Shown: piece by piece, positions 2 through 7,812 of the stretch | How positions within the stretch are numbered: position 1 is the first letter of the stretch | Layout: the number at the start of each line of letters is the position of its first letter | Origin: Gammaproteobacteria bacterium RIFCSPHIGHO2_12_FULL_37_14 | GTDB lineage: Bacteria > Pseudomonadota > Gammaproteobacteria > DSM-16500 | Reading direction: 5' to 3' | NCBI GenBank assembly: GCA_001801485.1 | Contig: MGXV01000017.1 | Coordinates: 1-7,812 of the forward strand | DNA length: 7,812 nucleotides | Notes under the pieces: model-generated | What the model was told of the DNA's origin: nothing | The model's input: only the letters and a program-made list of their open reading frames with translations | The model's database searches: none | Program-made: the position numbers and the translations under genes

Positions 2-1321
2 AACAATCCAGCCAGTGGTAGCTATCTCACGAAAAATGTCGGTGATAATATCAATGTTGCCGTCTCAGGCCTGGCTATTAGTGGCGCTGATAGCGGTAAT
101 TATCAATTAAGTGCCACCACAAGCAATGCTGATATCGGCAGCATTACACCAGCCACCTTAATTGCCACAGGAATACTTGCTGAAAATAAAACATTTGATT
201 CATCAACAACGGCAACATTAAATCTTACATCAGCGATTTTATCTACTGTATTGACTGGTGATGAAGTTAGCATTAATCCAAGTGGCTACATTGCAAATTT
301 TGATACTCCTAATGTTGGAAATAGTATTCCAATAACTGTTAGAAATTTGAGTTTAGTTGGAACTTCAGCTGCAAACTATATGTTAACGCAACCAACTGGC
401 ATTAGTGCCAGCATTTTTGCTTTGCCAACCGTCGTGAGCACAGAAGCAAGTAGTGTTCCTATTAATATTCCTATCCAAGCTATACTTCCTGTTTCCACCA
501 TCGAAAACTCAGTGACTACGGTGAATGTCACGCCTATCATTGACAATAATGTAAATAATTTGCCAAGCAACAGCATACCAATATTTGCATCACAAGGAGC
601 AAATGTGGAAGCTCCATTTGCTGAATCCACTCCTAGTATCCGTGCCCCAGGAGCAATTGGTCTCGCAGCAGGTACAACGCTTACTAATTTAACGTACAAA
701 TTGCTAACAACTCTATCTAAAAAAGCAGAAGGAGCAATGCTTCCTACTAAAGAGAATTATATTCGAACAATATTTGCATTTGCTTTCTTAGGTAGTATGA
801 TCAGTTTACTAAAACAAATTCGAACCGTACGAATGCCGAAAATTCCATCCATTGACGAAATTCAGCTATTAGATATGAATTATTTAAAAAAATTGAGTTT
901 TGATTTTAAAACATATCTCAATAACATTAATGGATTTTCACAAATGCTTTATGCTGGAAAATTTGGTGAGCTGCCCGCCGAGCAAAAAATTTATGTTGAA
1001 AACATTATCCAAAGCGCTAACGATATCCATCAGTTAATTCAAGATATAGATAAATTATATTTACTGAAGACAAATGATACGCCAAGTTATGCTGAATATG
1101 GCAAATTATTTTACCGATTATCTTTTGAATTGCGAACCGCATTAAATAATACAATTGGTTATTCTGATCTATTAGTTAATAATAAAATAGGACATATTAC
1201 TGCTGATCAAAGAATCTATCTAAACGAAATTACCAATAGCTCAACTCATATTTTAGAATTAACCAATATAACAATATGGCTATATACAGTTGAACAAGCC
1301 GTGCAGCCTATTGTCATGTAA
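2..1321 (+). CDS. YDG-repeat adhesin-like protein with C-terminal tandem HisKA-like domains (5' truncated by window)
   Basis: The frame is open from base 2 to the TAA at 1319-1321 (439 visible residues), so the gene starts before the window; the TTG at 251 is not its start. Visible residues 1-50 and 51-138 are YDG/MBG-type beta repeats: FDSST stands for the usual YDGTT, followed by GDEVSI, a Gly/Ile/Thr strand and the LVGTSAANYMLTQP ending. Such repeats occur in filamentous-hemagglutinin-like secreted adhesins. Residues 139-250 are a Ser/Thr/Pro/Asn-rich linker. Residues 254-270 form one hydrophobic segment followed by K and R residues, which by the positive-inside rule puts the C-terminus in the cytoplasm. 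Residues about 293-356 and 365-428 are two copies of a HisKA-like helical hairpin. No ATPase domain follows. The adhesin assignment is by family; the membrane topology and any signalling role are inference. Confidence 0.8.
   Translation, partial: NNPASGSYLTKNVGDNINVAVSGLAISGADSGNYQLSATTSNADIGSITPATLIATGILAENKTFDSSTTATLNLTSAILSTVLTGDEVSINPSGYIANFDTPNVGNSIPITVRNLSLVGTSAANYMLTQPTGISASIFALPTVVSTEASSVPINIPIQAILPVSTIENSVTTVNVTPIIDNNVNNLPSNSIPIFASQGANVEAPFAESTPSIRAPGAIGLAAGTTLTNLTYKLLTTLSKKAEGAMLPTKENYIRTIFAFAFLGSMISLLKQIRTVRMPKIPSIDEIQLLDMNYLKKLSFDFKTYLNNINGFSQMLYAGKFGELPAEQKIYVENIIQSANDIHQLIQDIDKLYLLKTNDTPSYAEYGKLFYRLSFELRTALNNTIGYSDLLVNNKIGHITADQRIYLNEITNSSTHILELTNITIWLYTVEQAVQPIVM
878..1285 (+). 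repeat. Tandem duplicated HisKA-like domain, phosphoacceptor His replaced by Phe in both copies
   Basis: Copy 1 (878-1069) reads SFDFKT then YLNNINGFSQML, and later GELPAEQKIYVENI. Copy 2 (1094-1285) reads SFELRT then ALNNTIGYSDLL, and later GHITADQRIYLNEI. Both match the HisKA pattern SHELRTPLN..IGFSELL...G.L...Q..YL..I. The residue aligned with the phosphorylated His is Phe in both (codons 899-901 and 1124-1126, both TTT). The two Phe residues lie 75 residues apart. The copies are clearly diverged, so the duplication is old. No HATPase_c domain follows, so kinase activity is not expected; a dimerisation or partner-binding role is inference. Confidence 0.68.
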
Positions 1322-1338
1322 CTGCATTTGATTGAACC

Positions 1339-1950
1339 TTACTCATTACGACGACTAGCTTTTACCGTATTTATCCAATAGTTTTTCATTTCTTCTGTAT
1401 CTTTAAAAAGAATACGTTCTAGGCACTCAGGCCCAGAATAATTATCCAGCCTACCATCAAATAGTTTTCCATTTAAGTGATCAGTTTCATGTTGAAATAC
1501 TCTGGCTTCCCATCCTTCCATCATATGCTCTATTTTCTCTCCTTCCAGATTATAATAAGTAGCAGTAATTGCTTCATAACGATTAACAATGCCAGCTGTC
1601 AGTGGAATAGAAAAACAACCTTCATAAGCCGCGACCATTTTAGGTTCTGTTTCGTTAGGGCGCAGGTAAGGAACATATAATGGATTAATCATTACCTCTA
1701 ATTTTTTTTCTTCCTCTGATCCTTGTGGCGTAAAAATAAATACTCTTCTTTTGATTCCCCATTGGTTTGCAGCCATACCAGCCGCACTTTCATGGACACC
1801 ATTAGCATTCTTTAGTTGAGTCGGCAAAATTGAATAACACATATCTTTTATAGTTTCACGAAGTTCCAGATCGTTAAAATCCATCACAGGCGGTATTATT
1901 TCACGTAAAATCGGATGGGTTTTTTCAACAAAAAATAATAATTTTGGCAT
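1339..1950 (-). CDS. def: Peptide deformylase
   Basis: This 203-residue protein belongs to the metalloenzyme family that removes the formyl group from the N-terminal Met of new proteins in the cytoplasm. All three motifs are visible. Motif I is AAGMAANQ at residues 56-63 (family GxGxAAxQ, with the first Gly replaced by Ala). Motif II is EGCFS at 110-114, with metal ligand Cys112. Motif III is QHETDHLNG at 153-161, with ligands His154 and His158 and catalytic Glu155. The length is somewhat above the usual 165-190, with a charged C-terminal tail after about residue 170. The ATG follows AGAGAT about 7 nt upstream. The gene converges on the adhesin gene with only 17 bp between them. It is not next to fmt, so it may be a second, accessory deformylase. 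That is inference, since the rest of the genome is unseen. Confidence 0.93.
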   Translation of the reverse strand: MPKLLFFVEKTHPILREIIPPVMDFNDLELRETIKDMCYSILPTQLKNANGVHESAAGMAANQWGIKRRVFIFTPQGSEEEKKLEVMINPLYVPYLRPNETEPKMVAAYEGCFSIPLTAGIVNRYEAITATYYNLEGEKIEHMMEGWEARVFQHETDHLNGKLFDGRLDNYSGPECLERILFKDTEEMKNYWINTVKASRRNE

Positions 1951-1977
1951 GGCACTTATCTCTATAGTGTTTTTAAT

Positions 1978-2006
1978 TTGCTCTCATTTAAATTTAACGC
2001 TATGAT
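1978..2006 (+). promoter_or_regulatory. Candidate sigma-70 promoter for the entericidin-like ORF
   Basis: TTGCTC (1978-1983), a 17-bp spacer and TATGAT (2001-2006) give a plausible sigma-70 promoter, with transcription expected near 2013. This lies about 30 bases before the ATG at 2044. The call is by motif only. Confidence 0.4.
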
Positions 2007-2010
2007 TATA
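2005..2010 (-). promoter_or_regulatory. Candidate -10 box for the deformylase gene
   Basis: The minus strand reads TATAAT here, about 55 bp upstream of the deformylase ATG. No good -35 lies 16-18 bp further upstream. The box overlaps the divergent -10 of the plus-strand promoter at 2001-2006. Confidence 0.35.
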
Positions 2011-2017
2011 TTTTTAC

Positions 2018-2032
2018 TGCGAAATCTTCGCA
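2018..2032. repeat. Short perfect inverted repeat between divergent genes
   Basis: TGCGAA, three bases (ATC), TTCGCA: six perfect pairs. It lies just downstream of the plus-strand promoter and where the minus-strand -35 would be. It could be an operator or a 5'-leader hairpin; chance is also possible at this size. Confidence 0.3.
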
Positions 2033-2043
2033 TGGAGCTTATC

Positions 2044-2118
2044 ATGTTACGGAATGTTTTGGTAATGATTTTGCTACCTGGTTGTCAAACTGTCCAAGGA
2101 TTAGGAAAAGACATATAA
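2044..2118 (+). CDS. Truncated entericidin-like small lipoprotein (24 aa)
   Basis: The ORF encodes 24 residues: a short basic start (MLRN), a hydrophobic stretch (VLVMILL), a lipobox-like LPGC with Cys14, then QTVQGLGKDI and TAA. This matches the entericidin A/B family, small envelope lipoproteins whose mature part begins C-x-TV-x-G-x-G-x-DI and normally continues another 15-20 residues (EAIxxAA). Here the reading frame stops directly after the signature, and the bases after the stop do not resume the usual EAI pattern. GGAG at 2034-2037 lies 6 nt before the ATG, a good ribosome binding site. An upstream in-frame ATG at 2032 lacks one. Pro at the lipobox -2 position is unusual. It is either a decayed entericidin or an unusually short one. 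Confidence 0.55.
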   Translation: MLRNVLVMILLPGCQTVQGLGKDI

Positions 2119-2119
2119 T
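2091..2119 (+). promoter_or_regulatory. Candidate promoter for the DUF218 gene
   Basis: A perfect TATAAT at 2114-2119 overlaps the stop codon of the entericidin-like ORF. A weak -35 (TGTCCA, 2091-2096) lies 17 bp upstream. It gives a leader of about 55 bases for the downstream gene. The -35 match is poor. Confidence 0.3.
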
Positions 2120-2179
2120 CTGTAGAATCAAATTTTATTACTGAGTGTTGAGTAGGGCAATGATAAACAAGTGGTAAAT

Positions 2180-2815
2180 ATGAAAATGAATTTAAGCGCT
2201 ATTATTATATTAGGACCAGGCCAGCTTCCTGATGGAACCATGTTACCGTGGGGAAAATCAAGAATAGATGCAGCTTATCAAAGATTCCTTAATACTGAAT
2301 ACCCATCGTACATTATTTTAAGTGGCGGCAGAAAGTCGCACTTTACTTCAGAAGCAAGCGCTATGCGTGATTTTGTACAGAATCATTATCCAGATATGCT
2401 GAAAACACTTTTATTAGAAGAATTATCAATAGATACATTGCAGAATGCATTTTTTACTAAAGTCATTCATATTGATCCACTCGAAATAAAGCAACTAACC
2501 ATTATTACTAATTTATTTCATATGCCAAGAGTAAGACAGATTTTTACAAATTTATTCAATGCTTCGTATCAGTTAAAATTTTTAGAAGCAGCCGATCCTG
2601 AAGCTGATGAAAAAACTATAGCAACCCAAAAAGTCATTGAAAAATCTGCGATCGAATTTAACGAACACACCTTATTTTGTAACGATATAAATATAAACCT
2701 AAAAACAGTTCATTCTTTGATCTTCAATATTAACCCTGATATATCACTCGCATACAAAAACATGATAACAAAGCTTCAACCGTTCTTCACACTCAATCCG
2801 CAGGCAGACTCTTAA
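2180..2815 (+). CDS. DUF218 (YdcF/SanA/ElyC-type) family protein
   Basis: The protein has 211 residues from the ATG at 2180. The DUF218 fold is recognised from ILGPG near residues 11-14, DGTMLPWGKSRID at 18-30, ILSGGRK at 46-52 with EA at 58-59, the SIDTLQNA motif (family E.S..T..NA), and TNLFHMPRVRQIF, which matches the family T..FH..R motif. Members with known roles act in envelope integrity or bind nucleotide-like ligands; the exact reaction is not settled. There is no N-terminal membrane segment, unlike SanA and ElyC, so this copy looks soluble, like YdcF. An in-frame GTG at 2171 is an alternative start. The ATG at 2180 is preferred for its AGTGG 5 nt upstream, though that site is weak. 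A five-codon ORF (2160-2177) overlaps the start region. It lies 89 bp before the deacetylase gene and may share transcription with it. Confidence 0.8.
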   Translation: MKMNLSAIIILGPGQLPDGTMLPWGKSRIDAAYQRFLNTEYPSYIILSGGRKSHFTSEASAMRDFVQNHYPDMLKTLLLEELSIDTLQNAFFTKVIHIDPLEIKQLTIITNLFHMPRVRQIFTNLFNASYQLKFLEAADPEADEKTIATQKVIEKSAIEFNEHTLFCNDININLKTVHSLIFNINPDISLAYKNMITKLQPFFTLNPQADS

Positions 2816-2892
2816 AGTATAGGAGTGACACCTCGTCGGAGCGGCAATAAAATAAAATTAGCAGATCAAATCAGCACCCTCATTGATATATA

Positions 2893-5886: not shown

Positions 5887-5911
5887 GTGGATTCAACCAA
5901 TAACTGCAACC
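5887..5911 (+). mobile_element. IS30-family-like terminal inverted repeat, left end
   Basis: The sequence is GTGGATTCAACCAATAA, C, then TGCAACC. It matches the repeat at 7701-7725 (reverse complement) in 24 of 25 positions. It resembles the IS30 end as I recall it (GT-A-GATTCAA...GCAAC pattern). The stop codon of the DJ-1/PfpI gene lies only 2 bp inside it. No direct repeat flanks the two ends. Confidence 0.65.
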
Positions 5912-5913
5912 CA

Positions 5914-6534
5914 CTATTTCAATGATTCCACAAGAGTATAGAAGTATTTCGCTTCCCTTGTCTTGTTTAATTGATACCAAGCTTCCAGAGTTTCTGGGTT
6001 CATTATATTTATCTTTTTGAATACTTCATATGAAAATTCTAATGGTGCAAGTCCTGTAGCTGTTATCAAGTTGCCATCAGTAACCGCTGGTTGATTTAAG
6101 TATAATTCCTCTCCTGAATATTCAGGGCAACTCATTTTTAAAAATTCTTTATCATTGCTGGTATGTTTTCTAGTATTAAGTATTCCATTTTTTGCTAAAG
6201 CAAGTGTCGCTCCGCAGATTGCCGCGATTGTCACGTTCTGATCTAGAAGCTCGGGGATAAGATTCATTATTTTTTTGTTACTATCTTCAAACCAAGTATC
6301 GGCTCCTGGTAAAATCAATATGTCACTCTTATTAAATACGATATTATTAATATTCTCATTTGGAGTAATTATAATTCCACCCATTGTTTTGATGGGCTTG
6401 GTAGTATCCCCAATTTTAATAAGATTAACCGGTGTTTTTGTTTTATTAAAAAACCTACCGCTGTTAAGTTCAGCGATTATATAGCCGATTTCCCAATCTG
6501 CTAATGTATCGAGTATATATAGAAATGCTTTCAT
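5914..6534 (-). CDS. DJ-1/PfpI-family (type 1 glutamine amidotransferase-like) protein
   Basis: The 206-residue cytoplasmic protein has the DJ-1/PfpI fold: ADWEIGYI with conserved Glu15, ILILPGADTW at 72-81, and the nucleophile elbow AAICGATLAL with Cys107. It is followed by RKHTSN with His124 and by TATGLAPLEFSYEVF at 158-172. The motifs resemble the YoaZ-like branch of putative amidotransferases and stress proteins. The superfamily includes proteases, glyoxalases and chaperones, so the reaction is open. The start is supported by AGGAAGAG 3 nt before the ATG. The gene ends 2 bp inside the left IS30-like end and starts 46 bp downstream of the stop of a transposase remnant on the same strand. 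It may therefore have been expressed by readthrough from the former transposase gene; no clear promoter was found in the 46 bp. Confidence 0.87.
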   Translation of the reverse strand: MKAFLYILDTLADWEIGYIIAELNSGRFFNKTKTPVNLIKIGDTTKPIKTMGGIIITPNENINNIVFNKSDILILPGADTWFEDSNKKIMNLIPELLDQNVTIAAICGATLALAKNGILNTRKHTSNDKEFLKMSCPEYSGEELYLNQPAVTDGNLITATGLAPLEFSYEVFKKINIMNPETLEAWYQLNKTREAKYFYTLVESLK

Positions 6535-6580
6535 TAACTCTTCCTAAATTAGTTTGTTTATAGAATGCTCTGCTTACATA

Positions 6581-6727
6581 TTAATTACTCTGGCTCGCAT
6601 TGAAAACTTCATTTGGTATTGCATAACCTAATGACTTTCTTGGTCTAGTATTCAGTTTATCCATAATAGCGATAAGATCATCATCTGTCACATTGTTAAA
6701 ATCAGAACCTTTTTTTAAATATTGACG
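6581..6727 (-). pseudogene. IS30-family transposase, C-terminal remnant (minus-strand copy)
   Basis: The minus strand encodes RQYLKKGSDFNNVTDDDL, then IAIMDKLNTRPRKSLGY, then AIPNEVFNASQSN and TAA (6581-6583). This is the typical IS30 transposase C-terminus (RQYxxKGxDF...LNxRPRKxLGYxTPxEVF). Only about 48 residues remain. The catalytic DDE core and DNA-binding domain are missing, and homology ends at the AATATT junction (6718-6723). It cannot act as a transposase. Confidence 0.85.
6718..6723. other. Palindromic junction between two transposase remnants
   Basis: AATATT is the point where the minus-strand remnant (QYL codons) meets the plus-strand remnant (also at its QYL region). Six-base palindromic microhomology could have served for joining two IS30 transposase genes in inverted orientation. 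Confidence 0.45.
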
Positions 6728-6860
6728 AAAGGGCAGTGATTTTAGTGAAGTAAAAGATGAATATCTGGATGTTATTTCAGAAAAATGAAATAATAGACCA
6801 CGAAAAAGCTTAGGTTATAAAACACCTAATGAAATTTTTAATAAGGAAGCAATATTATGA
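6726..6860 (+). pseudogene. Second IS30-family transposase, C-terminal remnant (plus-strand copy)
   Basis: The plus strand encodes RKGSDFSEVKDEYLDVISEK, a TGA stop (6786-6788), then NNRPRKSLGYKTPNEIFN and KEAIL, ending TGA at 6858-6860. The internal TGA replaces the Leu expected in KLNNRPRK, so the gene is dead. It shares 24 of 38 residues with the minus-strand remnant, so it comes from a different IS30-type element rather than a recent copy. The upstream part is lost at 6723. Its final codons contain the AAGGAAG ribosome binding site of the next gene, and its stop overlaps that gene's ATG (ATGA). Confidence 0.82.
6843..6849 (+). promoter_or_regulatory. Ribosome binding site inside the transposase remnant
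   Basis: AAGGAAG lies 7 nt before the ATG at 6857. It is made of codons of the dead plus-strand transposase frame. Confidence 0.65.
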
Positions 6861-7219
6861 GCGATAATATTTACACTGAAAAATTATTTTCTTATGGCAC
6901 TCTTAGATATGAGTCTGTTCAACTCGCTACATTTGGACGAAAACTAAAAGGTAACCAAGATATTTTGTCGGCTTTTAATTTATCTATGGTGGAAATTAAA
7001 GATAAGAATGTAGTAGAAACGAGCGGAGAAGCCGTCCATCCAATTATTACCTTTACAGGAAGTCAAACAGATCAAATAGCGGGTTTTGTATTTAATATAA
7101 GTTCAGAAGAATTAAAACGGGCAGATGAGTACGAAGTTGAAGATTATAAACGTATTAGCGTACAACTTCAGTCAGGAATAAATGCCTGGGTATATGTTAA
7201 TGCAGAAGAGAAAATTTAA
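6857..7219 (+). CDS. Gamma-glutamylcyclotransferase / AIG2-like family protein
   Basis: The protein has 120 residues. LFSYGTLR at 10-17 is the substrate-loop motif of the gamma-glutamylcyclotransferase fold. ADEYEVEDYKRISV at 89-102 matches the family LDxYEG...YxR motif, with Glu93 as the likely catalytic acid/base. AGFVFNIS at 75-82 and AWVYV at 110-114 form core strands. Family members release 5-oxoproline from gamma-glutamyl amines or dipeptides; the natural substrate here is unknown. The length fits the short AIG2-like subgroup. Translation starts from a ribosome binding site within the transposase remnant, and its TAA overlaps the next ATG (TAATG), so the two genes form a coupled pair. 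I found no well-spaced promoter upstream. Confidence 0.82.
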   Translation: MSDNIYTEKLFSYGTLRYESVQLATFGRKLKGNQDILSAFNLSMVEIKDKNVVETSGEAVHPIITFTGSQTDQIAGFVFNISSEELKRADEYEVEDYKRISVQLQSGINAWVYVNAEEKI

Positions 7220-7692
7220 TGATTAAAATTAGGCATATGTCTAATGACGACATTAAAGATGTTTCTTTTGTGCATAGTGAAGCATTTAATAGACAACTTG
7301 CATCAAGGAAATGGATAACTTGTAATTTTAATGCTTACCCAAGAATTATGATGTTCGTTGCAGTGGATGAAATGAACAAAATTGTTGGTTATATCCAATG
7401 GCTACAAAAAAGTGGTTTTAGAAAGGAAACAGTTGTTGAGTTAGAACAAATAGCAGTATTACCGGCTTTTCAGGGTAAAAAAATCGGTACTGAGTTGATT
7501 AATTGTTCGCTGAAATTTATTAAAGAATATTTAGTAACCCAAAATTCAATTTTAAAATCAATAATGGTTACAACCAGAACAGATAATCTTGCTCAGAAAT
7601 TGTATAAAAAAACTTTAGGCGTAGAAATCGTTGCTACAATTAAAAACCTTTATTCTGCAGATGAGGTTGTCATGGTTACAAAATATACCTAA
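7219..7692 (+). CDS. GNAT-family N-acetyltransferase
   Basis: The 157-residue cytoplasmic protein has the GNAT layout: an IKIRHMSNDDIKDVSFVHSE start, strands FVAVDEMNKIVGYIQW at 46-61, and motif A LEQIAVLPAFQGKKIGTELI at 75-94. The acetyl-CoA loop reads QGKKIGT where the family usually has Q/RxxGxG/A; the first Gly is Lys88. Motif B is the NLAQKLYKK region (123-131) with LGVEIV. Such enzymes move acetyl from acetyl-CoA to an amine of a small molecule or protein. Its ATG overlaps the stop of the cyclotransferase gene (TAATG), so expression is translationally coupled. A shared substrate, such as an amine or gamma-glutamyl amine, is inference. The stop lies 8 bp before the right IS30-like end. 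Confidence 0.87.
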   Translation: MIKIRHMSNDDIKDVSFVHSEAFNRQLASRKWITCNFNAYPRIMMFVAVDEMNKIVGYIQWLQKSGFRKETVVELEQIAVLPAFQGKKIGTELINCSLKFIKEYLVTQNSILKSIMVTTRTDNLAQKLYKKTLGVEIVATIKNLYSADEVVMVTKYT

Positions 7693-7700
7693 AAAATGAC

Positions 7701-7725
7701 GGTTGCATTTATTGGTTGAATCCAC
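7701..7725 (-). mobile_element. IS30-family-like terminal inverted repeat, right end
   Basis: The reverse complement reads GTGGATTCAACCAATAA, A, then TGCAACC, differing from the left end at one base (7708 against 5904). It faces the left end, so the pair forms a true inverted repeat. Beyond it (7726-7812) I see no gene. Confidence 0.65.
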
Positions 7726-7812
7726 CATCATCTCATTCCATATAGTTTAGAATAGCTCAATCTTTAGATTACACTTGTGGTGCAGCTTGTTTTGATAGCA
7801 TGTTTAAATATT

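Follow-up and report, generated by a model that had tools for sequence, protein, structure and literature searches.

The window, that is, the whole stretch of DNA that was analysed (7,812 nucleotides), carries between positions 5887 and 7725 three genes and two pieces of transposase enclosed by an inverted repeat. These features are, in order:

5887..5911, + strand: IS30-type terminal repeat, interpreted as the IRR (right end) of a left half-element (30.3 bits)
5914..6534, - strand: cargo gene for a DJ-1/PfpI family protein (Pfam PF01965, E=1.1e-24)
6581..6727, - strand: C-terminal tail of an IS30 transposase (RQYLKKGSDF...RPRKSLGY...NEVF; tblastn match)
6717..6860, + strand: C-terminal tail of another IS30 transposase, distinct from the first and interrupted by in-frame stops (tblastn match)
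6718..6723, no strand: self-complementary AATATT, the meeting point of both tails, where the Gln-Tyr of the RQY motif is encoded
6857..7219, + strand: cargo gene for a gamma-glutamyl cyclotransferase-like protein (GGACT; Pfam PF06094, E=6e-10)
7219..7692, + strand: cargo gene for a GNAT acetyltransferase (Pfam PF00583, E=3.4e-12)
7701..7725, - strand: IS30-type terminal repeat, interpreted as the IRR (right end) of a right half-element (29.5 bits)

The two arms form a 25-nt inverted repeat with 24 of 25 positions complementary, just as the original prediction had described it. The bare repeat lies near the edge of chance, a repeat of 25 nt (at most one mismatch allowed) having also appeared in 1 of 60 dinucleotide shuffles. 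The further claim that the arms resemble IS30 ends is borne out by an independent weight matrix, which was built from 18 hand-picked ends of ordinary IS30s without the ends of the window or of cargo-carrying elements. On this matrix the arms score 30.3 and 29.5 bits, while the next site within the window reaches 3.8 and the maximum in 2 Mb of random sequence of matched composition is 16.8. Because these scores far exceed both backgrounds, the arms are taken to be true IS30 ends, beyond chance; they share the form GNGRATTCAA...TGCAAC with the IS30 family, so that the window has the terminal inverted repeats that mark membership of it. IS30 itself makes a 2-bp target duplication (accessible part of PMC9333248). 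A duplication is absent here, the unit being flanked by CCC on the left and CAT on the right. No copy of the whole unit was seen at another place, and a 41-base query found no window ends in plasmids, which at such a query length is weak evidence.

The bracketed genes proved to be those that had been predicted (Pfam; tblastn), and the distances of 2 bp and 8 bp from the outer cargo stops to the ends were likewise reproduced. Thus, the DJ-1 stop codon lies 2 bp inside the left end; GGACT and GNAT overlap by 1 nt, and the GNAT stop lies 8 bp before the right-hand end. The DJ-1 protein scores under the cut-offs of both TIGR01383 and TIGR01382. A defence island and a phage or plasmid origin were considered and rejected: none of the three cargo proteins gave a defence-system match in PADLOC, the window DNA had no nucleotide match in plasmids and phages, and among viral contigs no relative of DJ-1 or GNAT was confirmed. 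At the protein level, plasmid records gave 61 matches to DJ-1, every one below 60% identity, and 2 to GNAT. The names attached to DJ-1 relatives include Coxiellaceae, and those attached to transposase and GNAT relatives include Legionella.

The transposase content of the window amounts to the two C-terminal tails, both of which fall below the Pfam cut-off. With an Acinetobacter IS30 transposase as tblastn query, 6730-6602 (-) corresponds to residues 269-311 and 6729-6839 (+) to residues 275-311. The tails point apart, each outward into its own cargo: the left half consists of transposase tail, 46 nt from its stop codon to the DJ-1 start, DJ-1, 2 bp and an end, and the right half of transposase tail, GGACT, GNAT, 8 bp and an end, with the last stop of the plus tail overlapping the GGACT start (ATGA). 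In DNA the tails align only imperfectly with one another and are therefore taken to stem from two distinct genes, not from a single gene that was recently duplicated. Where they meet, AATATT falls on the Gln-Tyr codons of RQY in both reading directions. Since it is both a direct and an inverted repeat, a deletion between head-to-head transposase genes would give exactly this junction.

Two IS30-derived pieces together with other genes in a single stretch could also suggest an old composite transposon, in which two ordinary IS30s surround host genes. Such transposons do exist. ISApl1 is a member of the IS30 family. It flanks the composite transposon Tn6330, which carries mcr-1 (accessible part of PMC6349718). 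Tn6330 is a case of IS30-family mobilisation of another gene. However, a composite transposon needs the insertion sequences on the outside and the genes between them, and in Tn6330 whole ISs do lie outside the carried gene, whereas in the window the tails are central, the genes are outer and the cargo sits inside the element, from the transposase to the right end. This order of parts led to rejection of the composite transposon, which would be a highly improbable origin for the region.

Right ends of IS30 elements and loci with cargo

IS30 elements are usually described as a transposase and its ends alone. The position of the right end was surveyed in 369 genomes (the class of SSA3, a genome discussed below), 99 of which had matches to the Acinetobacter IS30 transposase. 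The stretches examined comprised 30 loci, 60 more hand-chosen from the listed part of a longer set and the plasmid query, 91 in all, and a transposase C-terminus was present in 90 of these (89 from the class genomes, 1 being the plasmid query). A right end was found at the stop in 49 (11 of them also in the training set of the matrix), far downstream in 5, at both positions in none, and at neither in 36, of which 12, including L040, had less than 2465 nt of downstream sequence, so that far ends can escape. Among the 49 ordinary copies, 38 have their stop within the right end, 9 have an end that begins 2-10 nt past the stop, and in 2 the end is wholly upstream. The five far ends lie 596 to 2465 nt downstream of the stop, and in this first survey none of them accompanies an end at the stop. 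Wrong-facing downstream ends were seen at 2 loci, one of them being an abutting neighbour in G329.

Because the ordinary IS30 transposases surveyed read up to or into the right end, the arms of the window are best read as right ends. The label itself rests on the direction of the tails, since both halves are without left ends. The window differs from most of these ordinary copies, in which the transposase stops in or near the right end, in that cargo separates the two.

A second sample covered 398 genomes of the phylum, 10 of which matched at E<=1e-90, together with 5 viral loci. Of its 20 scored C-termini, 17 have an end at the stop, 1 (L162) has only a weak site that lies within the gene, and none was found for 2; the sole site beyond +80 (L167, +260) terminates a second copy. 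No cargo element was found among these 20, and therefore cargo is not general in IS30. Order-level samples around G001, G005 and G129 comprised 1, 2 and 1 genomes, respectively.

Nine further IS30 loci in four gammaproteobacterial genomes have the order seen in each half of the window: transposase or tail, then cargo, then right end. They are the 5 far-end loci of the survey and 4 found through their ends:

G129, three loci: L119 6267-8442; L119 1745-3418; L057
G329, three loci: L118 4179-5945; L118 5950-9215; L151
G021, two loci: L120/L099; L095
G005, one locus: L121

One of the nine, L119 6267-8442 in G129, is bounded by an end on either side, and its transposase is intact (NF033563, 302.9 bits; cut-off 80). 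As in the window, this element is without a target duplication, its flanks being GAT and CCC. At 8 of the 9 loci, the cargo gene that adjoins the transposase shares its orientation; in the intact G129 element the two are opposed. Ten cargo proteins were scanned with Pfam (the cargo of L095 and L151 being left out); those identified are CrcB and DUF190 (fluoride channel), nitronate monooxygenase and tautomerase, and a multicopper oxidase, while 5 of the ten had no match (three from G129, one from G021 and one from G329). In PADLOC, one cargo protein of G129 weakly matched JetC through a coiled coil, and a second one had a marginal match to a restriction enzyme. L095, which supplies one of the five far ends, is a more distant, weaker IS30, whose end scores 19.6 bits on a matrix trained also with cargo and window ends.

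Several observations accompany these loci. At L118 5922-5973 the right ends of two different cargo elements abut, tail-to-tail, with a 4-bp spacer, CTTC; the IS30 of E. coli inserts beside its own ends and forms abutted ends, as far as the accessible text of PMC9333248 describes it. In L146 (G329:C45), at 25-1524, an IS30 end that is identical to that of the multicopper oxidase element follows 129 nt after the end of a gene. This gene is assumed to resemble a heavy-metal-type RND pump. In L151 (G329:C14), where the tail match is weak and the cargo locus was recognised when read by hand, one open frame at 1556-2854 (-) begins as an IS30 transposase tail and continues as a protein that looks secreted; an IS30-like end follows, and the frame is possibly a fusion of tail and cargo. 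Contigs C17 and C44 of G329 were considered as two insertion sites of a single unit and rejected; they are overlapping assembly paths, 100% identical over 9697 bases.

The original prediction had called for a search of relatives for elements sharing these ends. Cargo-bearing IS30 loci, the nine above, did come to light, while the exact end pattern, scanned over the contigs of 84,980 species, gave a single lone end in the MAG Coxiellaceae bacterium SSA3. None of the 6 weak transposase matches in the SSA3 genome is above the IS30 family cut-off. At this locus (L001 6178-6201) a gene, which is presumably alpha/beta hydrolase-like, stops 162 nt inside the end, and no transposase tail was found there.

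Relatives of the tails and of the cargo genes

The intact G129 transposase has at least 7998 relatives among the best 8000 candidates scored. Its 120 nearest relatives, which were chosen by likeness to one cargo-bearing element and not by cargo state, contain RQ[YF][LF]KK in 65 cases and a VAL tail in 2. A VAL tail is acquired by an IS30 transposase that reads into its end, and VAL stands within the last eight residues in 22 of the 49 ordinary transposases. RQYLKK, which the minus tail of the window has, occurs in 5 of 7 'far' tails but in not one of the 68 'near' or the 38 'none' tails. For these counts L151 was filed as 'near' through a wrong reading frame, L032, L040, L059 and L099 were dropped as the same or overlapping places in L118, L119 and L120, and among the 68 'near' rows are three viral loci that share one match, as well as loci counted in two rows. 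Against the 120 G129-type relatives and the 49 ordinary tails, respectively, the minus tail of the window has mean scores of 143.8 and 97.5, and the plus tail 130.9 and 87.9. By these likenesses the window tails resemble the group of the G129 transposase more closely than they do ordinary IS30s.

When the best 120 transposases were set against the best 120 GNATs, 13 pairs shared both the size of their longest contig and their source, compared with a mean of 0.88 and a maximum of 3 pairs in slid controls (n=120). Three of the 13 shared contigs exceed 60 kb, which is little proof, and eight measure 1.6-3.5 kb. One of the latter, of 1583 bases, has 134 nt beyond transposase and GNAT, where the ends and spacers of a bare element need about 129; the other seven have 169 to 2109 nt left over. 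Judged by lengths and source, GNAT relatives thus seem to share contigs with such IS30 transposases. For the 119 DJ-1 rows, the transposases gave two common sizes (1452 and 1138), too short for both genes, and DJ-1 was not seen as IS30 cargo elsewhere in the lists of best transposases and DJ-1s.

No case was found of the three genes in the same order but lacking ends and tails, an arrangement that would have told against the original prediction. DJ-1 was found in 0 of the 369 class genomes at E<=1e-40, an empty result that, having no positive control, proves nothing; GNAT was found in 2, G030 and G129, in neither case beside the other two genes. The G030 gene has no IS30 nearby, and that of G129 lies on a contig without a transposase match; 803 nt downstream of it, beyond another gene, stands an IS30-like end with 4 mismatches.

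GNAT is a plain gene in G030, and a lone end does occur in SSA3; both fit the idea that two unrelated solo IS30 ends with their tails flank ordinary chromosomal genes of the window by chance. Against this stands the tight fit of both cargo sets, each enclosed by a tail and an end, oriented like its tail and with start and stop codons close by, as well as the recurrence of the same order at nine further loci and the restriction of far ends, in the first survey, to copies without an end at the stop. Chance flanking is thus quite improbable.

Origin of the locus

The region probably represents the remains of two passenger-carrying IS30-family elements, now fused head-to-head as half-elements. In this model, each parent element would have consisted of left end, transposase, cargo and right end, both elements having once been whole, with the cargo directly behind the transposase, read the same way and presumably co-transcribed with it. 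A deletion between the two head-to-head transposase genes would then have removed both N-terminal parts and both left ends, and the product would be the order that is seen: right end, DJ-1, tail / tail, GGACT, GNAT, right end. Within the long inverted repeat to which two such genes would give rise, slippage or microhomology could have produced the deletion, and the junction of the tails at the same codon positions, on a 6-bp palindrome, fits this. Two elements are also favoured by the overlap of the GGACT start with the stop codon of the transposase. Against them, an intact parent was found for neither half, and the ends are 24/25 alike though the tails differ clearly, which a selected or converted pair of ends fits at least as well.

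The original prediction had instead seen one symmetrical unit without a transposase, which would amount to a mobile insertion cassette with two right ends, moved whole in trans. The near identity of the ends and the open cargo genes, closing 2 and 8 bp inside them, are in line with this, as is the finding that an IS30 transposase acting in trans inserts circles lacking it (accessible part of PMC9333248). In addition, a longest contig of 16,666 bases is listed both for a DJ-1 that differs by one residue and for the cluster to which the window GNAT belongs, so that the two cargo sets seem to sit together in another assembly. However, that contig may be the same locus; the flanks show no direct repeat, no copy of the unit was seen at another place, it has no plasmid or phage DNA match, and decayed tails are not needed in such a unit. 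Thus, the predicted cargo inside IS30 ends stands, while a single unit is unlikely, given the outward tails and the nine loci with the same order. The preferred reading therefore remains that of two fused half-elements. As it stands, without a transposase, the unit would move, if at all, only with transposase supplied in trans.

Known classes of mobile units and the surrounding sequence

An IS that also carries passenger genes is named a transporter IS (tIS), and the mobile insertion cassette (MIC) is likewise a named class (accessible parts of PMC9330008 and PMC3129680). The G129 element L119 6267-8442 fits the former, with a transposase and other genes between one pair of ends, and the window differs from it in having no whole transposase and no left ends. 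With the MIC, the window shares IS-type ends that bracket cargo in the absence of a transposase; it differs in that it has no target duplication, no second copy that was seen, and two transposase tails inside. The suggestion that a symmetrical cargo unit would be of a new kind is not borne out; such units would already bear the MIC name, which appears in the accessible text of PMC3129680. No IS30-family transporter IS was found in the literature searched, which lay outside ISfinder and most subscription papers, and it is not established that such an element is new to the literature.

If a branch of IS30 regularly carries genes, an element of about 1.6 kb can move stress and detoxification genes between bacteria, and annotation that equates the transposase stop with the end of the element would miss cargo. 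It is conceivable, though doubtful, that an IS30 branch with an exchangeable cargo slot, from transposase stop to right end, serves as a small gene shuttle among uncultured Gammaproteobacteria, with cargo of the detoxification type expressed behind the transposase, and that end-to-end joining, as in G329 and the window, makes new two-cargo units movable in trans by a related transposase. The window itself would illustrate a way in which decay and fusion of such elements may yield what resembles a new transposon.

Two other parts of the window deserve mention. At 251-1321 (+), an open frame joins YDG and HisKA domains, with Pfam matches that do not include an ATPase domain. At 7748-7812 (+), the right flank reads FRIAQSLDYTCGAACFDSMFKY after an in-frame stop, with no start codon ahead in frame, and this frame is presumed to resemble the start of a C39-type cysteine peptidase.
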